Made by a program: the position numbers and the translations under genes. Under the pieces are notes generated by a model. It was not told the origin of the DNA. It made no database searches and worked only from the letters and a program-made list of their open reading frames with translations. This document shows, in pieces, positions 444 to 49,131 of a stretch of 64,000 nucleotides of DNA. Position 1 is the stretch's first letter, and the number at the start of each line of letters is the position of its first letter. Source of the DNA: Lineolata rhizophorae (taxonomy: Eukaryota; Ascomycota; Dothideomycetes; Lineolatales; Lineolataceae); NCBI GenBank assembly GCA_010093515.1, contig MU001670.1:142699-206698 (forward strand). The letters are read 5' to 3'.

Positions 444-1810
444 AGGACCCGGCCGGCTTGTCTTGTTGCCTTCCTGTTGCCTTTTTTTGTCGTGTGGCTT
501 TTCGCTTCTGCACGGCGCCGCCCGGCCTCGCTCCCCTCCCCCCACCCCTGAGTTGAGATTCCCTCGCGCCAGGCGTCGGCGGCAGACGGGCTGGCTTCGT
601 CCGACGGCCCGCTTCCCGCTCTGCTGCTGCGCTTTTGCCAGGCCGACGTGCCGGTGCGCGCCATGTGGGCGGAGTTGGAAGGGCGCGCGCGGGTCCTGCG
701 AGGTGGGGAGGGGAGGAGCGGGAGGGTGCTGCGGGGGCTGCGGGACAAGGCGCCCGGGTCGTCGGCGGGGCGAGGCGTGCGGGTTGTGATGAGTGTGCGT
801 CTGTGTGTGTGCGTGTAGATTGATTGAAGGGGGTTGGATTGGAGGGTATATTTCTGGTACTGCAAGTTGGTTTTTTTTTTCTTTTTTTTTTTTTTTTTGA
901 AAGGCTGGGAGGCTTGGTTTGGGGTGATGGGAAATAAGCGCTTTTGTGTGCCGCTGCGGTGGGGTCTGGCATTGCGGGGGATACCCGTGCATACGAGGTT
1001 AAGAAGGGAGGGCCTAGGGACTGGCCCGGTGGGTGCGTTCCTCTTCTGCCTTGGACAGTGGAGGGCTTGTGAGGTCGTGCGAGTTGTCGTCCGTTGTGCG
1101 CACGTCCAATCGTGTACGAGGGCTCCGCGCTGTAGGATTGGGAGGAGCACAGTGGATGCGTTGGTTTAGGTTTCCGCTTTGCATAGCTCAGGTTTGAGGA
1201 TTGGAACCGAACACTCGAAGGTGGAAGACGGACAGAGCGTGAGCGGGCGGAATCGGAAGCACCTGGCCGGCACAAGATGTTGGCGCTGCGAGGGTTTGTT
1301 GGTCGGCGATGCTTACCCTTAGGCAGTAGATATAGGTATGCATGCGAGCGACGCTGACATTCGAGTGTCTGCTCGCTCGTCGTGGTTATTTTCTACGATC
1401 ACAAACTAAGCCTCCTGTCGGACAGTTCAAACCATTGCTGCTAATTGACTACCCAATGAAGAGCCGCCAAGATGCGACGCTGGGCCAAGTTACCCGGCAC
1501 AAATCGCCAGGCAAAAGAACAAGGCTCAGCTTTCAGCTGCCGCTTTCGTGTCCGCTGCTTCTCGTCTACCGCATTGCTTCCAACCGCTCAAACCCGGTCT
1601 CATCAGAATGTGTCCGTCTCCCCAGACGCGCCGCGCACGCTTCTATCCACAGCGGCCAGCCCCAGCCGCCTCGGCCACTTCATTTCTGTCTCGGCCACCG
1701 ACTCCATCGACCACGAAAGACAGCCCAGACCGTCCACGCAAGCCCGCAACCATTCGCCCGCCCATACTCCCACCATCCAACGCCACCATATCTCCCCCCC
1801 CTCCCCGGCC
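444..1810. other. Gene-poor interval
   Basis: I see no convincing gene. The interval holds a GT-rich stretch (about 790-820), an interrupted run of T (870-898) and pyrimidine-rich DNA from about 1640 to 1810. Long open frames on both strands read as compositional artefacts of high GC. Confidence 0.5.
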
Positions 1811-3667
1811 CTACCAAAACTCATGCCTCCCCTTCCCCTTCCTCCCCCCGCCAGGAGCAGCAGCGGCGCTAGCACCGCCCCCAAACGTCTTCTCGAACCA
1901 GCTCGTATCCCAATCGCTCGCCGGCCGCGGCTCCCTCCCCGTGAACACCAATTCGTCGTCGCCGTCGTCCTCGTCGCCGTCGTCCTCGTCGCCGTCGTCC
2001 TCGTCCCCGTCCCCGTCTCGCCCCCCCTCCTCGCGCCCACCATCACCAGCCTCGCGAGCCCCGCCGCCACCCCTCCTCCCCGGCCCCCTCGCCGCCGCCT
2101 CCTGCTCCTGCTCCGCCCTCGCCGCTTCTCCCTCCGCAAACGCCCGCCAGGCGCCCACCTCCTCCTCCCCCCCCGCCGGCGCCGCCCCGGCCTCTCGCCC
2201 CGCCGTCTGCAACCCCGCACCCGTCTGCGCAGGAATGCCGCGGCGCGTCGCCTCAGCCTGGCCCCGCACGTCGGCCTCCGATGTCGCCTCCAGGACGCGC
2301 CTGTGCGGCGGGAGGCGCTGGGTCCGAGTCCGGGTCCGGGCGTGCGGCGCCGGGGCCGCCGTCGGGGCTTGCTGCTGCTGCGGGCCGCGGGCGTTCAGGC
2401 CGCGCGTGCGGTCGACCAGCTGCCTCTGCAGGGCGCGGCCGGCGTCGCTGCGGTCGTCTGTCGTCGGCGCGGCGGTGGGGGCGGCGGCGGGGCCGGGAGG
2501 CGTGCGCGTGGAAGCGGGCGCTTCTGCTGGCGCCGTGGCGGCGGCGGCGGAGGGCTTCTGCGCCCGCTGGTCGCGGGCCCGCTCTCCCGCTTGCTCGGCC
2601 CACTCGGCGAGGTCGGGGAGGGTGGGCGGGAAGGCGAGCTCGGGGGCGGGCGGGTTGGCGGTGTCGGGCTCGTAGGCGGGCTGCTTGTCGGGCGCGGGCG
2701 GGCGCCCCGCGGGAGCCTTGGGCCAGGCGGCGGCGGAGGCGGGCTGGGCCGTCCCCTTGTTTTTGCCGCGGTGCCGGCCCTTGCTCTTCTGCGGCTGGTT
2801 CTGCTGCTGCTGTTTGGGGCGCTGCTTCGCCGGCTGCGCGGCCCTCCCGGCCCTCCTCTTGCGCGCGAGGGCCAGCACCCCGTTCAGCTTCTCCAGGTCG
2901 GCCTCGAGGTCCCAGGTGTCGAGCTCGGGCTTCGGCGTCGTCGGCGTCACGCCCAGGCTCCTGCAGAGCCGGTGCACCACGGCCGCCCAGGCCTGCCAGG
3001 TCGGGCTGGTCGTGAAGAGGGCGTACGCCTGGTCGTACGCCTCGGCCGGCACGCCGTCCCATCCATCGTCCACCTCGGGGTCCAGGCCCCGCGTCGTCGC
3101 TGCCGCCCCGCCGCCGTGTCCCCCCCCGCTCTCTTGTTCACCCTCGACGGCCGCCCACATGCCGGCCTCCCAGTATCCGGCGACTAGCCGGCCCGCGAGC
3201 ACGTTGCCGTACTCGACGAGCAGCCGCGTGACGGCGAAGGGGTGCTCGCGCGCGTCCCCCCTCAGGGCCTCCCACCGCGGATTCGCCGCCCCGACTGTCG
3301 TCCACGGCAGCACGGCCGCCGCCGTGGGGCCCTGGTGGTGGAGGGCGTCCAGCCGCTCGTAGCCCGACCCGCCGTGCACCGCCAGCAGCGGCAGGGTCCG
3401 GGTGCGGAAGAGGCGCGCGCCCGAGATGCGGGGCGCGGCGCCTTGGTCCCCCGCCGAGGGCCGGGTCGAAGGGAATTGCGGTGGCGGGCTCCACGCCGAG
3501 AGGGAGGGCGCCAGACCGGGCGCCGGGAGGGCGTCTGCGGGCGGCGAGATGCCCTTGAGGACGCAGAAGGCGCCCCGAGCCGGCTTGATCGGGCACGCAG
3601 CACGGCACGCCGCGCTGCGGCCGAGGTCCCAGATTGGGAAGAGCTCGGCGCTCTGGAAGGAGGACAT
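1811..3667 (-). CDS. Unknown protein, Ala/Pro-rich with acidic repeat
   Basis: An uninterrupted frame of 618 codons from the ATG at 3667; the frame stays open to an ATG at 3820, but the 51 extra residues are Cys/Ser-rich and lie in a repeat-bearing leader. The N-terminal third (roughly residues 1-250) is the most globular, with many Trp and Tyr residues. The middle is Ala/Pro/Gln-rich and probably disordered. Near the C-terminus a GDEDD-type repeat arises from a 15-bp minisatellite at about 1954-2018, followed by a short Trp-containing tail. I see no membrane segment and recognise no family. It is probably real because the N-terminal portion is of mixed composition and the codon pattern is consistent, but internal introns cannot be excluded. 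Function unknown. Confidence 0.6.
   Translation of the reverse strand: MSSFQSAELFPIWDLGRSAACRAACPIKPARGAFCVLKGISPPADALPAPGLAPSLSAWSPPPQFPSTRPSAGDQGAAPRISGARLFRTRTLPLLAVHGGSGYERLDALHHQGPTAAAVLPWTTVGAANPRWEALRGDAREHPFAVTRLLVEYGNVLAGRLVAGYWEAGMWAAVEGEQESGGGHGGGAAATTRGLDPEVDDGWDGVPAEAYDQAYALFTTSPTWQAWAAVVHRLCRSLGVTPTTPKPELDTWDLEADLEKLNGVLALARKRRAGRAAQPAKQRPKQQQQNQPQKSKGRHRGKNKGTAQPASAAAWPKAPAGRPPAPDKQPAYEPDTANPPAPELAFPPTLPDLAEWAEQAGERARDQRAQKPSAAAATAPAEAPASTRTPPGPAAAPTAAPTTDDRSDAGRALQRQLVDRTRGLNARGPQQQQAPTAAPAPHARTRTRTQRLPPHRRVLEATSEADVRGQAEATRRGIPAQTGAGLQTAGREAGAAPAGGEEEVGAWRAFAEGEAARAEQEQEAAARGPGRRGGGGAREAGDGGREEGGRDGDGDEDDGDEDDGDEDDGDDELVFTGREPRPASDWDTSWFEKTFGGGASAAAAPGGGRKGKGRHEFW
1954..2018. 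repeat. 15-bp coding minisatellite
   Basis: About four tandem copies of a gtcgccgtcgtcctc-type unit. On the minus strand it encodes the repeated acidic Asp/Glu/Gly tract of the unknown protein. The unit length is a multiple of three, so copy changes keep the frame. Confidence 0.75.
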
Positions 3668-7324: not shown

Positions 7325-10300
7325 TCAAGTGAATGGCCGGATGTAGGGCTGGCCGTTGAAGACGAACGAGTTCTGCACTCGGTAGAAAAAAGCTTGGTTG
7401 TAATGCTCACCTAGCTGGCGCTTAATTTGCTCGCGAGCCCAACGGGCCGTGTCCTGGGTGCGCTGTGTGAAATCACGATTCGCGCGCACCTCTTTGGCGA
7501 ACGCCGATACCCAATCCTCGCGGTAGTAACGCGAGATCTGGCCGTTGGGGAAAGCTTCGGCCAAGTCACCAAGGACACCCATCGAGGACCTCAAGAGCGC
7601 CTCCGAGCGGTTCGGGTCGGAGTAGACGACGTTCAACAGCTGGAAGATGGCCGGGACGTATTCGGCCAGGTTTTGTTCTTTTTGTTTCGTTAGCGCATTT
7701 ACTGTACTCCGAAAGATGTGGTGTATGTTTTTTTTCTTTTTTTTAGGGTGTGCATAAACTCACGTTTTCCACTGGTCATCATGGCAACAATGGCACCATC
7801 CCAAGCATCCATAACAGCCTCTCTCAGACTCGTCACATAGTCCGCCATCTCATAGTTCGTCTCAGGAGTAATGCTAACTTGGCTCGCCTGGTTGAGCACA
7901 CTCGCAACAACGGACAAGTACGGCTCGAAATGACCATTAATAGCGTGCGCAATATCGCCAAAGGTCTGTAGAATAGCAGGTTTGAACTGGTTGCCAAGCT
8001 GGGTGCTACGGAGGTCGTTGAGCAGGTAGTTCATCAGAGCATCGCAATAAGGCTGAAGCTTCTCGTTGAGAGCACGTGCTAAGTCGCTCACGAGGCCAAT
8101 TGCCATGGAACACAACGACGGCTCGTTCTGGTTGGCAAGGGCGTTGTAAAGGTAGGGCACGAAAGCTTCCATGTACTTCTCAAAGTCTGCTTCGAGGGCA
8201 CTAGCGAGCGCACCAACAGCGCCCAGAACTGTATCGGGAACAGTGGAGCCAGCGCCGGAAGTGTTGAGCAGCTGGAGGTAAATCTGCATGATGCGGTCGC
8301 CGAGCGGCCTGATCTCCGCCTCCAGGCGCTGAATGATGGCCATAACCACCGTAGTGAGACTGGTCTTCATCTCCTCGAGCGCGAGCTTGTCCTCGACGCT
8401 AACGACCTGCTGGCTCATGGGGATGGTCTTTTCGAGACGCTCGAGGATCACTTCGGAGAGTTTGGCAACCAACGGGATACTATCGTTGGCAGCATTGGTA
8501 ACAAACGAGTTCAATACCTCGTAGGCGGCCGTGCGAAGCTGGGTATCCGCATCGGGGCGCTCGGTAACCTGAAGCAAGGCCGAAATGCTAGCCTCAAAGT
8601 GTTGGGACAGATGGTTGGTCTGGCACCCGGGCTCACCACAGAAGCGATCCGCCAGGTTCATGAGAGCCCAACAGCACGAGGAAGCCATCTTGGGATGACT
8701 AGACAAGCCGTTGAATAAGGCCGAGATGAGCGGATGGAAGTGGACTTGAGGGTCGATCGCATCCGAGCAAGCCTCACAGATGCGGCCCAACGCGTAAGCG
8801 GCCGAATCCTTGACCTGAACGACCTGGTCATCCATCATACCAATCAACACTGCCAACGCCTGCTTGACCAAGGGCTCGAGCAGCTTCTCGTCAGGGCCCT
8901 CCACAATCGCGCCGAAGGCAGAAACAGCGGCATCTCGGTAGTGCCAATCTTCGGCGCGGAGGTACTTCTCAACGAAGGTAAGGACGGTTGCGACGATTTG
9001 ACTGCCGACGGTCTGAGACCATAGGGTCAAGCATTGGTAGGCGGCGCGAGAGACATTGTACTCGTCGTCAGCATCGTCTTCATCCTGCTTAGCGAGCAGT
9101 TCGAGAAGGACGGGGACGACCTCCTGGGTCGCCACGCGAGCAAAGTTGAAGTATTCGCGTAGCTCGGTTGACCCTTCGGCCGTAGCCTGCTGGTTGTCGT
9201 CCTCGATCGATATCTCCTCCTCGCAGACGGTGCACCAAAACTCAATCGCAAGCTTGGCAACATCCTCTTCGTCGCTCTTCATGCCCTGGATGGTAAGGCC
9301 AAAGAGCGCCTTCTCCATATAGAAACGCATCTTGTCATAGTAGAGACCCATGATGCGGTTCAGGCAGCCATAAGCGCCCTGCTGTATCCGAGGGTCCTCT
9401 GCCTGGGTGGCCTCGCAGATGACCTGCATGATGTAGTTGCGCTCGCCCTCGTTTTCAAAGTTGGTGCGCACGAACTCGAGCGAGTCCGACAGCGCCGTAA
9501 CGGCCGCGACGCGGACATCATCGTCCGGCTCCTCCTTGCGCGCGCCCTGGACGACCGCCGTGAGGATGGCATTCGAGTGCGCCGCCAGGGACTCGCGCAG
9601 CTCGTTGTCATCCGACTCGCAAATGTAACCGATGGCGACGAGCGAAGACTGCTTCTGGTGCAAGGCGCCTTCGCTAACGTTGCGAACCAGCGTGGGCATC
9701 AGCTCTGGCCACGAGTCCAGAGGGATCTCGATAGAGCCAATGGCGGCAATAAGCTGGGCAGCGGTGCTGCCGGCGCGGTGATCCGAAGACGACAGGGTCT
9801 GCAGCGCGAGGTCCTTGACCGTGTTCTTAACCTGCTGGTCCAGCTGCAGCCAACGCTGCTGAAGCTCGCGCAGGCGGGCGAATTCGCGACCGGAGAAGGA
9901 GTTCTTGAGAGCAAGACCCGCAGCAGTGCGCACCGCGGCATCGTTGGATTCGTCTGCGAGTTCTTGGGCAAGGGTAACAAGGTAACCGGCCTAGATAGGA
10001 ACGACATTCATTCTCAGCATCTATGTCTACGCCGTTGTACGACGCAGCCGGCGTATGACTAGCCCGGGGGAGTTGCTTCCGCTGGCCGCGTCCAAAATCT
10101 TGGCCAAGCCACACAGGGTCCAAAATCAAACTGGGAGGCGGATGCGACACTTACGTAGTCAGCCTCAGCAGCTTGGCTGAGCTGGGTTTCGGCGTTGGAA
10201 CGGACGGCCCCATCTGCAAAACAGCCACGCGGGCAAAAATAAGCAACGTGACTGTGTGGTATGGCGAGGCGCGGAGCCCCATGGGGGACAGGATCCTCAG

Positions 10301-11512: not shown

Positions 11513-13897
11513 TCACATCCTACTCGCCCGCGGATCCTCCGCCTCCCTCCGCCTCCACTCCCTCATCTCCCTCGTCCCCAAGCTCCCCACCCCGCCCTCG
11601 CTCCTCCTCTCCCAGCCCCCCATCCTCACCACCAGCGCCGTCGCATTATCCGCGTTGCCGGCGCCCACCTCGGTCGCGAAGGCCACCACGTCCCTGCTGG
11701 CCTTCTCCGGCGTCCTCGCCTCCTTGACCACATCCACGATCTCCTTGTCGCTTAGCTCGCCGCTAACGCCGTCGGACACCAACACCAGGAACGCGTACTC
11801 CGCAGGGCCGCACTCGACGCGGCGGATCTCGGGCTCGGCGCTGACGCCGACGCGCTTGGAGCTCATGTCGCCGAAGGCCCGCGTGTTGGCGAGGCCGTGG
11901 ATGCGCTCCTCGCCGAAGCTGTCCGTCGCGAAGGCGGCCGCGTAGCGCCGCAGCCGCGTCGCCTCGGCGGGCGTGCTCGTGTGGTGGTTCGTCGTCAACG
12001 GCACCGGCTCGCCGTCGCGCGTCCGGCACAGCAAAACCCGCGTGTCGCCCACGTGCGCCACCACCACGGTGCACCAGCTCGCCGGGTGCCAGAAGGGCGT
12101 CGGCGTCGGCGTGCTCACTAACGCCACGCTCGCCGTGCTTCCGCCGCGGAACCGCTGCGCCCCGCCGATGTGCGACCCCTGTTGGTCCCGCAGAGCGCGC
12201 TGTGGCGATGGCGCGGGCACCGAGAGGCGCCCCAGGATTTCGTCGTCGTTGAGAGCCCGGTCCGCGAGCACGGGGTCCTCAGCATCCTTTTTGCCGGCTT
12301 GCGCGGAGACGAAGTCGAGGTCCGCTTTGAGGAAGGCCCAAGTGAGCACGGTTTCGATACCGATGCCGTCTGCATCGGCAGAGAAGTGGTGCTTGTGCGC
12401 ATGATGGTGATGGTGATGACCGTGATGGCCGCTGCTAGTACTCTGGCCTGGTGATGATAATGACGGTGACGATGAAGACATCTGCTGGCTCACCATCTCT
12501 TTCTCAAGCGTATGCCCTCTGCCGCCAGCCGAAAGAGCAAAGTACTCCGGTTTGAACCGCTTGAAGTATCCACCCACAAGCTCCCTCCAAGAACGCACAA
12601 GCTTGCGCTCGAGCTCCTCCGCTTTACGCTTGTTGTCGGACTGCTTGACACTTTGCGTGCCAGGGGTCGCCATCTTCGTCTCATCCAAGCCTGTCGGCAC
12701 CGCCGTGCCACTCTCATCCTTCCCAGTCCGCGGCTTCAGCTGCTCCCCCTCCTTCTTCTTTATATCCACGCTTGCCAAACTCTTCCTTCCCTTCTCCGCC
12801 AATTCCCACGAAGGCACCGCACCCGGCACCGTTCCCGGCGCTGCGCCTGCTGCCTGTGCCGCCGTCGCCGCAGCAGCAGCATCGGCTTTATCTTGATTGC
12901 CCCTCCACCCCCTCTCCCGCTCCCCTTTCAACGTGCTCTTCAATTCGAACTGCCTTACCCCCTCCTCGATATATTCATGCAGCTCCTGGCTCAAGAAATC
13001 CGAACACTCCGTCCCGCCATGCCCATCGAAGACACCAAAATAGAACACCTGCGGATCTCCCACCGCGCTATCGGCCGACATCCCTTCGCCCTCGCCCTCC
13101 TTATGCTCGCCTCGAGCGCCATCAGGCGCCCTCATCCGCCCCTCCGTCGTCAGCGAAATGGGCGGCCGCTTCGCAAATGCCGGCACCTCGATCGTGCCCG
13201 CCTGATGCGCGTCCTCGTTGTACGCCCGCGTGCCCCTGCTCACGCACGCCCCAAAGTGGTGCTTCGCGCTTCGCAGCGGTATCCGCACGACGGTGGTGTC
13301 TCGCCCCACGGCCGGGGACGCCGCCGGCGAGCTCCTGCTGGGCCCGCTGAGGGAGCCGGGGGTGCCGGCGGGGGGCTGGTCGGGCGTCGATGCGTCGCGC
13401 GGGAGTTTGTGATGGGGCCCTCGAGGAGCGGCGCCGGCGGACCGGGAGTCGGGGTGCAGGGAAGAGGTCGGGAGGTGCGTGACGAAGTAGTCGTGGAAAG
13501 GGCGGCGCTGGGATTGCCGGGAGGTGGAACCGCGGCGGCCGGTGAAGTTCGGTCGAGACTGGAGTAGAAGCAGAGGACGGTAGTTGCAGCGGGGTGTTGT
13601 AAGGCGGAGTTGAGAACGAGGCTGCTGCTGTCGCGGTGGCGAACAAGGATATAATCGAGCGCGAGACACGCGTGAATAAGGTCTGTTTTGGTATCGCAAG
13701 AGCAGTGGCGGACAAGATATTGAAGCCAGACTTCTTTTTGAGGACGTGAGCGTGCCATTGTTGCCTTGCGGGCGCGCGGCGGCTGCTAGAGCAGGCCGTA
13801 GTTGCGGATGTGCGGCCGCCACTACGAGCATACTGGCGGCATCTGTATCCCCGCTCGAAGAGCGCCCACCAGCCCGTCGGACCAAATGGCGCAGCAT
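11513..13897 (-). CDS. PTC6: PP2C-type Ser/Thr phosphatase, mitochondrial Ptc6-like
   Basis: A single exon of 794 residues. PP2C phosphatases use two metal ions to remove phosphate from Ser/Thr; yeast Ptc6 acts in mitochondria and on mitophagy, and this role is inferred here by similarity. Residues 1-135 are Arg/Ser-rich with almost no acid, like a mitochondrial presequence plus linker. PP2C motifs follow in order: YNEDAH (226-231), FGVFDGHGG (287-295, metal-binding Asp and Gly), VAHVGDTRVLLC, GLANTRAFGD, LVSDGVSGELSD and ADNATALVV. Long low-complexity inserts, including a His-rich run near residue 500, separate the early motifs; this is usual in fungal Ptc6 and makes the protein longer than yeast's 442 residues. 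All catalytic aspartates that can be placed are present. The start was chosen because it opens directly onto the basic presequence. Confidence 0.88.
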   Translation of the reverse strand: MLRHLVRRAGGRSSSGDTDAASMLVVAAAHPQLRPALAAAARPQGNNGTLTSSKRSLASISCPPLLLRYQNRPYSRVSRARLYPCSPPRQQQPRSQLRLTTPRCNYRPLLLLQSRPNFTGRRGSTSRQSQRRPFHDYFVTHLPTSSLHPDSRSAGAAPRGPHHKLPRDASTPDQPPAGTPGSLSGPSRSSPAASPAVGRDTTVVRIPLRSAKHHFGACVSRGTRAYNEDAHQAGTIEVPAFAKRPPISLTTEGRMRAPDGARGEHKEGEGEGMSADSAVGDPQVFYFGVFDGHGGTECSDFLSQELHEYIEEGVRQFELKSTLKGERERGWRGNQDKADAAAAATAAQAAGAAPGTVPGAVPSWELAEKGRKSLASVDIKKKEGEQLKPRTGKDESGTAVPTGLDETKMATPGTQSVKQSDNKRKAEELERKLVRSWRELVGGYFKRFKPEYFALSAGGRGHTLEKEMVSQQMSSSSPSLSSPGQSTSSGHHGHHHHHHAHKHHFSADADGIGIETVLTWAFLKADLDFVSAQAGKKDAEDPVLADRALNDDEILGRLSVPAPSPQRALRDQQGSHIGGAQRFRGGSTASVALVSTPTPTPFWHPASWCTVVVAHVGDTRVLLCRTRDGEPVPLTTNHHTSTPAEATRLRRYAAAFATDSFGEERIHGLANTRAFGDMSSKRVGVSAEPEIRRVECGPAEYAFLVLVSDGVSGELSDKEIVDVVKEARTPEKASRDVVAFATEVGAGNADNATALVVRMGGWERRSEGGVGSLGTREMREWRRREAEDPRASRM

Positions 13898-18353: not shown

Positions 18354-21137
18354 CTACTCATAGAGGTCCATGTCCGCCCCATCCTCCAACTCCTCAATCG
18401 CGTCCTCCTCATCGTACATCTCCGAATCCTCGTCCATATCGCTATCGGTATGATTTGGCAGGACATTGATATGGCCGTCCTCGAGGACGACCCTCGCCGA
18501 CTCGCCATCCCTAATGGTGCCTCTCAAGATCAGCACCGCCATGCGATTCAGCACTTCCTTCTCGATCAGTCTAGCCAGCGGTCTCGCGCCATACGCAGGG
18601 CTATACCCAGCCGAGCCGAGGTAATCCCTAACTTCGTCTGTCATCTCGATACGCACGTTGCGTCCGTTCTGCTGGAGCCGCTTCTGGATCTCGTCGATCC
18701 TAAGGTCCACAATCTTACGAATTTCGCGCCTCGTCAAACGATTGAAGATGACGATGCTGCTGATGCGGTTGAGGAACTCGGGTAGGAAGTAGCTGCGCAG
18801 CGCGCCCATGACCATCTCCTTGGTCGTCGGATCGATCTTGCCGTCTGGCGCGTTCGGCCGTGACAGATACTCCGCGCCCAAGTTGGACGTCATGACGACG
18901 ATGCAGTTCTTGGCGTCAACGATGCGGCCCTGGCCGTCCGTAATGCGCCCGTCGTCCATGAGCTGCAGCAGCACCGTTAACACCTCTTTCGCTGCCTTCT
19001 CCACCTCGTCGAAGAGCAAGATGGAGAACGGACGACGGCGCAGTGCCTCCGTAAGCTGGCCACCGGCATCGTGTCCTACATAGCCCGGTGGAGCACCGAT
19101 CATGCGCGACAGGCTGTGCCGCTCCTGATACTCGGACATATCGAAGCGGATCATGGACTTGGGGTCGTCGAAGAGGAACTCGGCCAGCGCCTTGGTCAAC
19201 AGTGTCTTACCGGTACCGGAAGGACCGCAGAACAAGAAGCTAGGCGGCTGGCTGGGGTTAGCCAGGCCAGAGCGCTGCAGCCGAATAGCGTTGGACACAG
19301 ACGTGACGGCCTCCTTCTGACCGACGACGATGTGACCCAGATGCTTCTCCATGTGGAGCAGCCGATCCTTCTCGGTGGTCTTTAGACGCGTCACTGGGAT
19401 GCCGGTCCAACGGGCGACAATCTCGTTGATCTGGTCGGGGCCGACCGCGTCGGTGAGCAAGGCTTCTTGTTGTCCGTTGGCGCGGCTGTACATCTCCGCG
19501 TCGGCGCGCGCTTTCTGGGCCTCGAGTTCCGTGATGCGGTGCTCGACGTCGGGAATAGCGTAGTACTTCAGGTCCGAGGCGGTCTGGATGTCGCGCATAC
19601 GCTCGGCTTCGGCCGCCTTAACTTTCAACGAGTCAAGCTTCATCTTCGCCTCCTGGATCTCCCTACTGCGCTCTTTCTCCTTCTCGTATTTCTCCCGCAG
19701 CGGCTTCAACTCCTCTTCAACGTTGGCGGCCTCAGCCTTCGCATCACGCAAACGTGCGCGGGACGCCTCATCCTTCTCACGCTCGAGGGCGTGGATCTCA
19801 ATCTGCAGTTGGCGCAGCCTACGCTCCATGTTGTCGAGAGCTTCAGGCTGGGACTCACGGGTGACACGAACGGCAGCGGCAGCCTCATCGACGAGATCGA
19901 CAGCCGAATCCGGAAGTCGTCTTGACGTGAGGTATCGCGCCGCAAGATTAGCGGCCGCTACGATAGCACCGTCGAGAATGGTGACACCGTGGTGGACTTC
20001 GTACTTCTCCTTCAGACCACGCAGAATGGAGATTGTCTCTGGGATAGTAGGCTCCTTAATGAGCACCTGTTGGAAACGGCGCTCGAACGCCTGATCCTTT
20101 TCGATGTACTTGCGGTATTCGCCCAAGGTCGTAGCACCAATGCAGTGGAGTTGACCGCGAGCAAGCATGGGTTTGAGCAGGTTTGCAGCGTCCATGCCGC
20201 CCTCGCCGCTAGCGCCGGCACCCATGAGCAGGTGGATTTCATCGACGAAAAGGACAATCATCTCCTTCGATTCCTCAATCTCCTTCAATACGCCCTTCAT
20301 ACGCTCCTCAAATTCTCCGCGGTACTTGCTGCCTGCGACCAGGGATCCTACATCAAGTGAGAGCAGCTTGCAGGCAGCCAAGTTGGCCGGAACATCGGCG
20401 TCGACTATCCGCCGCGCGAGACCCTCAACAACGGTGGTCTTACCGACACCAGGCTCACCAATGAGTACAGGATTGTTCTTGGTGCGCCGTGACAGGATGC
20501 GGATGACACGCCTAATCTCCTCCTCTCTGCCAATGACAGGATCGATCTTCCCCTCCCTAGCCATAGCCGTCATATCGATTGTGAACTTCTTGAGGTTCTC
20601 GCCTGCATCCTCAGCGTCCGCCGTCTTGGAGTCGACGCGCCGCGTGCCGCGAATCTGCGTAATGGCCTCGTCGATGAGCTTCGTCTTGGGCACGTTGGCC
20701 TCCGCTAGCGCGCGCTGCACCGTCGAGTCCTGCACCATAGCTTGGATCAGGTGGTCCACAGCGATGTAGCTGTCCTTTTGCGTTTTGGAAAGGTCGTTGG
20801 CGGACCGCAGCATCTTGGAGAAGGCTGGCGACACCGAAACATGGTCTGGCGGCGGGTCCTGGCTGGGCAGCCGCACCAAGGCTTTATTCAGATTCCGACT
20901 GAGCTGCTGCACGTCGCCGTGGGCCCGTTCCACGACCTGCTTGAAGAGCGGCGCCGACGCTTGCGCGTGCGACTCATGTTGCGGTGCTTGTTGGTCTTTG
21001 GAGAGATCGGGCTGTGGATCGAGGAGGGCGACGGCGAGATGGACGGGGAGGAGCTGCGAGTGTGCGTATTGGGTTGCGAGGGCCTGGGCCTCAGACAGCG
21101 CCTGAGTTGCCCGGTCCGTAAACTGGTAGTTCGACAT
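18354..21137 (-). CDS. HSP104: Hsp104/ClpB-type disaggregase
   Basis: Hexameric AAA+ chaperone of cytosol and nucleus that pulls polypeptides out of aggregates with Hsp70/Hsp40. A single exon of 927 residues, the family's usual length. Clp N domain (about 1-150), first Walker A GEPGVGKT at 227-234 with a downstream VLFVDEI Walker B, a coiled middle domain (about 410-530, rich in Glu/Lys/Arg), and second Walker A GPSGTGKT at 638-645 with LLFDEVEKA after it. The C-terminus is acidic, ending in MDLYE. No domain or nucleotide-binding motif is missing. An intronless gene fits a heat-induced transcript. A perfect heat-shock element lies about 205 bp upstream of the start codon. Confidence 0.97.
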   Translation of the reverse strand: MSNYQFTDRATQALSEAQALATQYAHSQLLPVHLAVALLDPQPDLSKDQQAPQHESHAQASAPLFKQVVERAHGDVQQLSRNLNKALVRLPSQDPPPDHVSVSPAFSKMLRSANDLSKTQKDSYIAVDHLIQAMVQDSTVQRALAEANVPKTKLIDEAITQIRGTRRVDSKTADAEDAGENLKKFTIDMTAMAREGKIDPVIGREEEIRRVIRILSRRTKNNPVLIGEPGVGKTTVVEGLARRIVDADVPANLAACKLLSLDVGSLVAGSKYRGEFEERMKGVLKEIEESKEMIVLFVDEIHLLMGAGASGEGGMDAANLLKPMLARGQLHCIGATTLGEYRKYIEKDQAFERRFQQVLIKEPTIPETISILRGLKEKYEVHHGVTILDGAIVAAANLAARYLTSRRLPDSAVDLVDEAAAAVRVTRESQPEALDNMERRLRQLQIEIHALEREKDEASRARLRDAKAEAANVEEELKPLREKYEKEKERSREIQEAKMKLDSLKVKAAEAERMRDIQTASDLKYYAIPDVEHRITELEAQKARADAEMYSRANGQQEALLTDAVGPDQINEIVARWTGIPVTRLKTTEKDRLLHMEKHLGHIVVGQKEAVTSVSNAIRLQRSGLANPSQPPSFLFCGPSGTGKTLLTKALAEFLFDDPKSMIRFDMSEYQERHSLSRMIGAPPGYVGHDAGGQLTEALRRRPFSILLFDEVEKAAKEVLTVLLQLMDDGRITDGQGRIVDAKNCIVVMTSNLGAEYLSRPNAPDGKIDPTTKEMVMGALRSYFLPEFLNRISSIVIFNRLTRREIRKIVDLRIDEIQKRLQQNGRNVRIEMTDEVRDYLGSAGYSPAYGARPLARLIEKEVLNRMAVLILRGTIRDGESARVVLEDGHINVLPNHTDSDMDEDSEMYDEEDAIEELEDGADMDLYE

Positions 21138-26153: not shown

Positions 26154-26513
26154 GGAAGCTGCGCGGGCACTGCCTGGGATGCTGGTGTTGTCAAAGCGCC
26201 CGGCCGGGTTTGTCGCAATTGTTGATGTTGCACAAGAGAGGGAAAGTGGTTGTGGGCTGAAGCTTTTGACGCGAAAAAAAGTGGCGGGCGGTGAAGGTCA
26301 AGCTAGAGCTCGCTTGGCCGGCAGAATATCCACAGTTTTTGGGGAAGCCGCCTTCGAGCTCGCTTAACCCTCCCATTATGTAAGCTGCGGCGCACACGCT
26401 GAGCCTGCTCACCACACGGTTGCATATCGTGTGCGCCGCCTGCTCAAATTCTATCATTGACGCTGTCCCCACACCAACACATCCACGGATTCCATCGGCC
26501 ACGACCTTCCACG
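26154..26513. promoter_or_regulatory. Shared promoter of fibrillarin and uL22
   Basis: 360 bp between the two start codons. It contains TTAACCCT (26364-26371), a telobox-like word often found in ribosomal gene promoters, and a 10-bp direct repeat GAGCTCGCTT at 26306-26315 and 26356-26365. Both positions suit upstream elements for either gene. Activity is inferred. Confidence 0.6.
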
Positions 26514-27442
26514 ATGGTGAGTTTGTCCCAAACACAGCTCTGCTCTCCACCCTATGCCTACAATATTTATCCAATATTTTGCGATTGACGGGTTGGCCTG
26601 GCAAACGACTGGCGAACGACACGGATAACTTACCACCTCCGAATTTGCATACGATCAGGTCCGTTACGCCGCCACGTACATCGAGCCCGCGAAGTCGGCG
26701 CGCGCCCGTGGGTCGTACCTGCGCGTCTCGTTCAAGAACACGCGCGAGACGGCCCAGGCCATAAACGGCTGGAAAGTCGACCGTGCCCTGCAGTACCTCG
26801 AGAACGTTAAGAACAAGGCCGAGGCAGTGCCTATGCGCCGCTTTGCCGGCAGCGTTGGAAGGACCGCACAGGGTGAGTCTGGTTGCCCAGCCTTTGCATG
26901 CGACGGTTAGGGGCTTGGGGGCTAGGGAATGGAGAGCTGGGAATGTCACCAAAACATAATCTTGGCTGGCACGGGAGATATTGAGACGCGGAATAAACAT
27001 ATGGAAGGGCAGCAAGCTAAACTGGCATCTCGCACCCATCAGGCAAGCAGTTCGGCGTCTCCAAGGCCCGCTGGCCCGTGAAGTCAGCGGACCACCTCCT
27101 CGGCCTTCTCAGGAACGCCGAAGCCAATGCCGACTCTAAGGGCCTAGACACCGGCAACCTCATCATCAAGCACATCCAGGTCAACCAGGCTCCCAAGCAG
27201 CGTCGGCGCACCTACCGTGCTCATGGCCGCGTATGTATACTTTCCCTGTTTGTCGAGGGGCTCGAGACATTGATAACCTATAGATCAACCCCTACATGTC
27301 CAACCCGTGCCACATCGAGATGATCCTGACCGAGGGTGAGGAGGTCGTCCAGAAGGGGCCGCAGGTCGTGCGTAGGGAGGAGGCTCGTCTCAACGCTCGG
27401 CAACGTGCGTCTCGCGTGAGGAGGGCTATCACCGCGGCATAG
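26514..27442 (+). CDS. RPL17: 60S ribosomal protein uL22 (L17)
   Basis: Large-subunit protein lining the peptide exit tunnel. Exons 26514-26516, 26659-26872, 27043-27230 and 27284-27442 join in frame to 187 residues, the usual length. The sequence after the start reads [20 protein letters not shown], with [15 protein letters not shown] and [20 protein letters not shown] later, all family-typical, and a basic C-terminus. Exon 1 is only the ATG, directly followed by GTGAGT; downstream ATGs would lose conserved residues. The final intron has a TGATAAC-like branch point. Divergent from fibrillarin. Confidence 0.96.
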
Positions 27443-29683: not shown

Positions 29684-30391
29684 CTAATAGAAGAAACCCA
29701 GAATCTTGCCACCTGCGTGTTTCCGCCTAGCTTCCTCGTGATCCATGATGCCAGCCGAGGTGGTAAGGACAACGTAGCCAAACTGACGCGACGGCAGCAG
29801 CTTGACCACCCAGTTTTCGATGTCGCGCAGTTGAACGTTGTAGCGTGGGGAGATGACGCCACATTTGTTCAAGCTGGCCGAATATTAGCGGGGATATTCT
29901 GTTACACAGGGGTTCATGGACACACCGGCCGTTGAGTTGAATTACGATTTTGCCGTTGCGGTGGTCGTCGACTTCCTCGAATTCGCCAATGTAGCCTAGG
30001 AACAGTGTACGTTAGCATATGTTGCGAAATCTTGAACGTCAATCTCCAGAAGGAAAGGTGTCAGGAAACGCTTCAGTCCGTCGCAGAAATGTTGCTCTAT
30101 CGGGCACTTAAAAGACAATGGCAAGTGGGAGAAACAATGAAGCCATTGCCTAGTTATCAGCCCGAATGGAATTTGGGGGGGTGGGAAATATCGAAAAATG
30201 GCTGCGATTTTCTCGTTGCGATCCGCCAACACCAGGATATGAAGAATTCTAGACATACCATGACGCTGCATGACCTGCAAGAACTTGACGATGACCTTAG
30301 AGCTCGGGCGGATGAGCACCTGGCGCTTGCCGGCCCTCTCGGCGTTGTTGATGCTCTTCAGCGCATCGTTCAGGACGCTGGTGCGGACCAT
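29684..30391 (-). CDS. RPS22: 40S ribosomal protein uS8 (S22/S15a)
   Basis: Small-subunit protein that binds 18S rRNA near the central domain. Exons on the minus strand 30259-30391, 29926-29995 and 29684-29873 join to 130 residues, exactly the family length. The protein starts [20 protein letters not shown], continues [20 protein letters not shown] and [20 protein letters not shown], and ends [22 protein letters not shown]. Intron 1 (29996-30258, 263 bases) is far longer than the other introns here and holds a box H/ACA snoRNA fold. In yeast the orthologous RPS22B hosts snR44 in an intron, so the arrangement is probably ancestral. The short second intron is 52 bases. Confidence 0.96.
30017..30166 (-). 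ncRNA. snR44: Box H/ACA snoRNA in the uS8 intron, probable snR44 homologue
   Basis: Pseudouridine guide RNA, read on the minus strand. Hairpin 1: outer stem TCGGGC (from 30165) with GCCCGA (30100-30105), inner 7-bp stem CAATGGC with GCCATTG. Box H AGAGCA at 30093-30098 follows one base after the stem. Hairpin 2: outer stem TGCGA (30081-30085) with TCGCA (30023-30027), then box ACA at 30020-30022, three bases before the predicted end. The pocket of hairpin 1 has GATAACT on its 5' side and TTTAA on its 3' side. These complement AGTTATC and TTAAA that flank a UC in the conserved 18S segment TTAAATCAGTTATC, the site of yeast pseudouridine 106. The pairing arm lies about 15 bases before box H, as required. 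Yeast snR44 guides that site from the same host gene. The target of hairpin 2 was not identified. Confidence 0.82.
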
Positions 30392-47279: not shown

Positions 47280-49131
47280 ATGGACTGTGGACTCGCTGTC
47301 GTGGGGAACATCCTTGCACTCTCTCAACTGCTCAATGACATTCCTTTCTCAATTGGAATTGCTTCCAGTGCTACCAATCATCTGCAAGATGAGGGTGGAG
47401 AATTTTTCAAATTGGAGTCAACACTGAACTCACTGAAGGAAACTGCAGGCGGGAATTCAATGATGGAAGAGTTAGTCGAAGATACCAAGGCACGTTCAAA
47501 TCATCTGGAGAAGTTGCTCACGTTGATGAAAGATACACAAGATGGAACAAAGGTTTGTTCTTTGAAACCGTTCCCAGTCACATCTAACAGAATTCTAGGA
47601 TCATGCAAAAAATTCATGCTGTAGTGCCGCAATTCCGATCGATCCGAGTTTGGAAAATCAAGTTCTCCTGGTCAAAGAATCTATCGACTCTTTGATTTCG
47701 TTCAGCATGATGATACTCTCTCAAGACTCGTTGCCTCAAATGTGGCCCGTGCTGTCCAACAGGAACTCAAAGAAGCTCGCCTCGGTGCGGAATTCTGTGG
47801 ATTCTCTACACAGGTCGTTAATAGATATGGACAGACTGCTTCGACCTGAGTATTTCATCAGCGACGTCAGGGTATTCTCTAACCTCAACTGGGCAGCTGG
47901 GAAGCGTGCTGAACATATCATACAAGCGCGCGTGCGTCAATTGGAGGATCGTCATGAAAGGTATTACCCTCCACAACTGATCTTTCAAGAATATCCTCAT
48001 GCAGAGGACATATCTTTGTGCTAATATTTTGTTTCTATGTGCTTTCACTTCCTTCTACTGACAGAAGGTTAATTTAGTACACACAAAAATTATTCGAGCA
48101 CTCTCCTCGCGCTGATCTTGTCCGACGGCAATGTCCTTTTCGATTCTTGTTCATATGCATTTCATTCTCTCCATCATGGGGGGGATAAGCTAAGACGCTC
48201 TTCCCGCTTGCTTCACGATCGAGGAGAGGGACTCAAGAGAAGAAGGGATAAGGTTCATGGAGGTGTGCCGGGTCTTCGCGGGCGATCGAATGCAACTTTC
48301 GATCAGCTTTGTCGAGGGGAAAACATGACCGACACATTCTACCCTAGAGGCCAAAACAAGGCCACAATTTTCCAGTCAATCGACTCTGCTCACCGTTGGA
48401 ACCTGCATCGGACGCTCCCCATGAGAGCGGCGAATCCAGGCAGTGGATTTGATATGTCTGCAGGTTGCGTCTCTTTTCCTCGACACTGCAAACGGAAAGC
48501 ATCTATCCTGCAATACCAATGGCTCTGCCATATTTGTGAACATGACAAGTGTTCTGGACTAGGGGCCCCCATCCCGGTAGAAAAACTTTTCGACATATCG
48601 TGCGAGAGGACGACCATTGCGGTGCAGTTGAAAATAGCTGAAAAAGTTGCGAGTTTTGTACTGAACTTCCATGGAACAGCGTTGTCGATTGACGATTGGA
48701 GTCTTCGCGATATGTTTATCTACTGTCAGGGCGACTCTATCCAGGAAGCTTGTCTCGCCACGATGCATTTCTCCAAGGACATTCATGCTTGCAAGTCATG
48801 TGCTCCACCGCAAGCCCGGCAGACAGCCGAGCGCAGCTTCGATTCCGTCCAGGAAAGCCGAAGGCCGCTCCTCTTCAGCCTCGGTGTGGCACTTCTCGAA
48901 ATCGGGCACTGGGCACCTCTTAACGCTTCTGACCCCAACGATGTAAATGCGATAAGGCGTTTATCTTTGAGGCCGTGCGCTCTTGGCCCAAAATACCAGG
49001 AACTCGTTCAAAAATGTCTTTGGTTGGACACGAAGTCTCCAAAGGGCATTTCTGAAACGGAGTTGAACTGTGCGGTATACGAAAACATTGTTCGGCCACT
49101 GCAGCACCTTATCGAACTTGTCGAGCAGTAG
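47280..49131 (+). pseudogene. DUF7580-type fungal protein, probably damaged
   Basis: Exon 1 is 47280-47552 (91 codons, helical, MDCGLAVVGNILALSQLLND), exon 2 starts at 47599 after a CTAACAG branch region and reads through residues such as SIDSLISFSMMILSQDSLPQ and LNWAAGKRAEHI to about 47960. The C-terminal region (about 48420-49131) contains KLFDISCERTTIAVQLKIAE, LSIDDWSLRDMFI, LLFSLGVALLEIGHW and YQELVQKCLWLD, the layout of the fungal DUF7580 domain. Between the two parts (about 48060-48400) the best homologous frame reads IIRALSSR, then TGA where Trp is expected, and then SCP; no clean splice path bridges it. So either the exon structure is unusual or the gene is decaying. DUF7580 proteins are fungal, often with helical N-termini as in immunity-like proteins. 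Divergent from the C2H2 gene. Confidence 0.55.

Follow-up and report, generated by a model that had tools for sequence, protein, structure and literature searches.

Intronic snR44 in fungi

In Saccharomyces cerevisiae, the box H/ACA snoRNA snR44 is encoded within an intron of RPS22B (PMC9068511, PMC9045821, PMC4202332), and published tables assign to it the 18S rRNA pseudouridine psi106, together with psi1056 of 25S rRNA as an additional listed target (PMC8307265). The level of psi106, which is guided by snR44 from RPS22B intron 2, drops by 36.8% when Dbr1 is missing (PMC9045821). A corresponding arrangement has been described in four CTG-clade species, in which an intron of the RPS22A orthologue carries snR44; the Candida snR44 shares its host gene with the RNA analysed here but belongs to Saccharomycotina rather than to a filamentous fungus (PMC5033589). 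Moreover, the RPS22B/snR44 structure has been listed as conserved in both Saccharomycotina and Pezizomycotina (Hooks et al., PMC4937481).

Among filamentous ascomycetes, a close described relative is Neurospora crassa Nc ACA1, an intronic snoRNA of 136 nt detected by Northern hybridization and reverse transcription, for which snR44 is given as the homologue (PMC2780460, Table 2). Its H-box pocket is assigned to 18S psi105, and its ACA hairpin is also listed for 26S psi1037 (PMC2780460). In Fusarium graminearum, a putative intronic SnR44 has been reported, the level of which depends on Dbr1; in the strain devoid of this enzyme, SnR44 is reduced and lariats holding intronic snoRNAs build up (PMC9606315). 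The snoRNA set used in that study and the alignments used in PMC8476143 originate from the fungal snoRNAome (PMC5824354), which lies outside the literature searched here; within the parts of the literature searched, no explicit uS8 host was found for a named Pezizomycotina species.

In vertebrates, ACA36, ACA50 and ACA62 (chicken GGgACA3) are listed as functional counterparts of snR44 for 18S psi105, although the chicken RNA differs in having CNOT1 as its host and in carrying the 18S-105 guide in its 3' hairpin (PMC2653536). Comparable host linkage is reported for other fungal snoRNAs: among the fungi examined, 82% retain the intron position in RPL7 (snR59) and 72% that in NOG2 (snR191) (PMC8476143). 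On the other hand, the 13 losses of snoRNA-bearing introns recorded in the Saccharomyces clade speak against permanent linkage (PMC4202332).

The uS8 gene and its introns

The locus lies in a 64-kb stretch of the Lineolata rhizophorae genome (64,000 nucleotides, hereafter the window). The window contains 63 ORFs of at least 150 aa, six of which, besides uS8, were run against Pfam. Three minus-strand ORFs, at 18354-21137, 11513-13897 and 7699-9933, matched a ClpB/Hsp104-type AAA+ chaperone, a PP2C phosphatase and an importin-beta-like protein, and the plus-strand ORF at 48118-49131 matched DUF7580, while those at 1472-3187 (plus) and 26191-27039 (minus) gave no Pfam match.

The gene encoding uS8 (RPS22) occupies the minus strand and consists of three coding exons, at 30259-30391 (133 bases), 29926-29995 (70 bases) and 29684-29873 (including the stop codon), whose spliced product is a complete 130-aa protein. 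This product, third exon included, matches Pfam Ribosomal_S8 (PF00410), as well as 96 distinct sequences in the PDB, and the two top matches, 7r81 and 5oql, both named 40S S22 and belonging to N. crassa and Chaetomium thermophilum particles, extend over all 130 residues. The first coding exon had one match in the fungus's own genome in a protein search, and its length presumably equals the 133 bases of the first coding exon in yeast. Intron 1 (29996-30258, 263 bases, GTATGT...TAG) is in phase 1, follows codon 44 and interrupts codon 45, and the spliced gene model places intron 2 at 29874-29925. Within intron 1, the motif GCTAAC at 30011-30016 is the likely branch site, judging from its resemblance to the consensus. 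The identity of the host, proposed in an earlier note on this DNA, was observed directly: the snoRNA described below lies inside an intron of uS8.

Upstream of the uS8 start codon, on the same minus strand and within 30671 to about 30476, a GTATGT is followed about 180 bases on by GGCTAACAGCAG. The GTATGT...GGCTAACAGCAG pair has the appearance of an intron in the 5' UTR whose branch site and acceptor lie very close together. A 5'-UTR intron is also present in yeast RPS22B (PMC9068511).

Layout and family assignment of the intronic snoRNA

Read on the minus strand from 30166 to 30017, intron 1 presents a hairpin, AGAGCA, a second hairpin, ACA and three further bases, which is the layout of a box H/ACA snoRNA. 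The mature ends given here are estimates, the 3' end being taken as ACA plus three bases. The first hairpin opens with a basal stem of 6 bp (5' side at 30160-30165, from folding), which is followed by the 5' guide piece of pocket 1, GATAACT (30152-30158), the pairing of which reaches U30159 via a G-U pair. The 3' guide piece, TTTAA (30108-30112), has its first base 14 bases before box H, an AGAGCA conforming to ANANNA (30093-30098). The second hairpin (30023-30085), closed by UGCGA/UCGCA, folds weakly and carries no recognised rRNA guide, and box ACA is found at 30020-30022.

The two hairpins differ markedly in the stability of their predicted folds. For hairpin 1 (30167-30099), a folding energy of -26.1 kcal/mol was equalled in none of 200 dinucleotide shuffles (z -4.54), whereas the -14.8 kcal/mol of hairpin 2 (30092-30017) was equalled in 43 of 200 (z -0.79), and for the snoRNA as a whole, support was moderate (5 of 200 shuffles as good, z -2.08). 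Of the arrangement read earlier from the letters, hairpin-AGAGCA-hairpin-ACA with correct spacings, the order of elements and the H-box spacing of 14 stand, but the second hairpin is weakly backed by folding.

A strict pattern, requiring both guide pieces, both boxes and their spacings, was present in one of 50,000 dinucleotide shuffles of intron 1, compared with 31 for the two guide pieces alone, and each of these patterns occurs once in the window, at the snoRNA locus. Across the 30,968,845-base assembly, the exact pocket pattern has a single occurrence, again at the snoRNA locus, and its reversed control has none. Searches with the pocket patterns matched no relatives in the viral contig or genome contig collections.

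The family assignment was observed independently of the earlier note, which had named a search with the snR44 family as a check. A scan of both strands of the 64 kb with 4,227 Rfam families yielded a match to RF01262 (snR44) at 30027-30167, with 39.7 bits against a gathering score of 33 and an E-value of 0.00027; snR44 was the sole family in the window at the gathering threshold, and likewise the sole one at E <= 0.5. Sequence and model align well over hairpin 1 and also align over the tail, with 54 bases of hairpin 2 left out of the alignment, and the RNA is shorter than the model (about 150 bases vs 211 model positions). In its H/ACA layout, its first pocket (near-identical in the Rfam alignment), its 18S psi106 target and its location in an RPS22/uS8 intron, it resembles S. 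cerevisiae snR44. A match to SNORA9 (RF00411), a family separate from snR44, was also recorded at the snoRNA and was rejected at 21.3 bits against a cut-off of 85. A whole-genome search with RF01262, in which 36 of 350 candidates were scored, returned no match and missed the snoRNA locus itself, while two of its 14 prokaryotic controls gave matches, below the cut-off. We regard this search as an unsuitable first look and draw nothing from it on copy number.

Pocket 1 and its probable 18S target

Segments of 18S and 25S rRNA had no match in the organism's own assembly, from which rDNA may be absent, and the 18S segments likewise had none in the viral contig collection; therefore, yeast 18S rRNA served as a stand-in target. 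Pocket 1 was compared with the first 131 bases of this sequence, with the whole of contig JAFDYJ010000027.1 and with 592 bases of NZ_QBKZ01000001.1. Both records are filed as bacterial and match Rfam LSU_rRNA_eukarya: the former, a MAG contig, contains eukaryotic SSU, 5.8S and LSU parts, and the latter, from Mangrovicoccus ximenensis, holds a 592-base eukaryotic LSU match at 3004-3595 inside a 1.16-Mb contig. In both, the eukaryotic rRNA is likely to reflect contamination or chimeric assembly.

Among the sequences compared, the best site for pocket 1 was position 106 of yeast 18S rRNA, with a score of 12.5. There, the 5' guide UGAUAACU forms eight pairs, one of them G-U, and the 3' guide UUUAA forms five, a complementarity to the yeast sequence that is in line with the reading that GATAACT and TTTAA address the segment around psi106. 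The pocket is framed by an upper stem of 10 bp and a basal stem of 6 bp, and its H-box spacing of 14 fits the H/ACA rule under which 14-16 bases separate the target uridine from the box that follows it (PMC2780460). The psi106 pairing score was reached by two of 5,000 mononucleotide shuffles of hairpin 1. A competing pairing of pocket 1 with position 2297 of JAFDYJ010000027.1, in the LSU part of that contig (4+9 pairs, two of them G-U), scored 12.0 against 12.5 and was discarded, since the 3' guide in this arrangement would consume part of the basal stem. The statement of the earlier note that yeast snR44 guides 18S psi106 from an RPS22B intron is found in print (PMC9045821).

Hairpin 2 and 25S psi1056

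In terms of Rfam cut-offs, psi1056 is a listed snR44 target outside the Rfam threshold. For the comparison with hairpin 2, stand-in LSU pieces from other organisms were fetched by pattern, namely from IMGVR_UViG_3300007304_000456, JAFDYJ010000027.1 and NZ_QBKZ01000001.1. The end of the first of these, a contig filed as viral, resembles eukaryotic LSU rRNA at the psi1056 region (about 3526-3400, minus strand), and the contig gave no Rfam match at the cut-offs. We took psi1056 to be the last U of the U-run by yeast numbering, an assumption under which 1042, 1052 and 1056 all fall on U. The psi1056 region reads GTGGGCCATTTTTGGTAAGCAGAACTGGCGATG in all three pieces; as the fetch patterns already held GGTAAGCAGAACTGGCGATG, and for JAFDYJ010000027.1 and NZ_QBKZ01000001.1 the preceding TTTTT as well, independent agreement is confined to the bases outside the patterns.

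With spacings of 13-16, hairpin 2 offered no psi1056 pocket on JAFDYJ010000027.1 or NZ_QBKZ01000001.1, both of them stand-in LSU sequences with the site set by yeast numbering. When spacings of 10-17 were allowed, the best pairing on JAFDYJ010000027.1 comprised 3+5 pairs, a score equalled or exceeded in 763 of 5,000 mononucleotide shuffles, and NZ_QBKZ01000001.1 gave the identical 3+5 pairing. The triplet AUA (30020-30018), considered as the second box, was also set aside; the 25 best matches listed included no pocket for psi1056. The second guide may thus have been lost from snR44 in this fungus, or may lie beyond the reach of the pairing model used. This is one point of departure from the published relatives: S. 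cerevisiae snR44 is listed for psi1056, a guide for which was not found in hairpin 2 here on stand-in LSU sequences, and the departure may represent either a loss or a limit of the test.

Most probable explanation and alternatives

The element is very probably the filamentous-ascomycete snR44, a box H/ACA snoRNA released from intron 1 of uS8 (RPS22) by debranching and trimming, which guides pseudouridylation of the uridine matching yeast 18S U106. A refinement of this explanation, involving no contradiction of it, is that snR44 in this lineage has been reduced to a one-target guide, in which the 18S psi106 pocket of hairpin 1 and the uS8 host intron are retained, while the guide for 25S psi1056 has disappeared from hairpin 2, which acts only as a particle scaffold or guides an unrecognised target. 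The missing psi1056 pocket at spacings of 13-16, the mere 3+5 pairs at 10-17 and the weak fold of hairpin 2 all point in this direction. Nevertheless, Nc ACA1 of N. crassa is listed with both targets (PMC2780460), and the LSU sequences compared were stand-ins from other organisms, as the fungus's own 25S was not found in the assembly. The agreement of JAFDYJ010000027.1 and NZ_QBKZ01000001.1 over the target reflects selection by the fetch pattern and does not imply invariance of the site, whose position, moreover, depends on yeast numbering, and the pairing script disallowed the bulges or odd spacings of real guides. We therefore consider this reduction possible, yet rather unlikely.

Two further readings would deny the RNA its function. 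A snoRNA-like fossil, with sequence kept by descent but processing and use lost, would accord with a hairpin 2 that folds no better than shuffles; however, both boxes, the 8+5 guide and the 10-bp upper stem are intact, which would be unexpected for an unused RNA, and the RNA of published relatives has been detected (PMC2780460, PMC9606315), so that this reading appears highly improbable. Still less credible, to the point of being negligible, is a chance resemblance in an ordinary intron, picked out by a reader seeking snR44. Two-box patterns are indeed loose and hairpin 2 is unconvincing by itself, but the Rfam E-value applies to the whole window and all families scanned, the strict pattern is as rare among the intron shuffles as reported above, and the pocket pattern falls at one place in 31 Mb, which lies within the gene that also hosts snR44 in yeasts.

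Proposed biogenesis and significance

By analogy with the published relatives, and from general knowledge of such RNAs, the snR44 orthologue would be transcribed with its host, processed in a debranching-dependent manner and active in catalysis. After splicing, the debranching enzyme would open the intron 1 lariat, and exonucleases would then cut the linear intron back to the protein-bound RNA. The resulting H/ACA particle would, through pocket 1, convert the uridine matching yeast 18S U106 into pseudouridine. The estimated 3' end of the snoRNA (30017) adjoins the likely branch site GCTAAC (30016-30011), which would put the RNA inside the loop of the lariat, consistent with a requirement for debranching. 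Release from the spliced intron by debranching is, on the analogy with these relatives, the most likely route.

The RNA is one more snR44 orthologue, correctly called and with good sequence support, and it is ordinary, because snR44 in an RPS22 intron in yeasts and intronic snR44 in N. crassa and F. graminearum have already been published. Hence, the earlier suggestion that such a homologue would bear on a very old host-guide linkage loses its element of surprise, as both the linkage in yeasts and snR44 in Pezizomycotina were already described (PMC9045821, PMC5033589, PMC4937481, PMC2780460, PMC9606315). The finding itself raises no new question.

Its value lies in enabling correct annotation of the locus and in adding another example of a guide RNA whose host is one and the same ribosomal-protein gene in budding yeasts and this filamentous ascomycete. 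If the reduction to one target is real, pseudouridine at the 25S site would be absent or would depend on a different guide, and only the 18S target would keep host and guide together. A true loss of the second guide would reveal on which half selection acts in a snoRNA with two targets.
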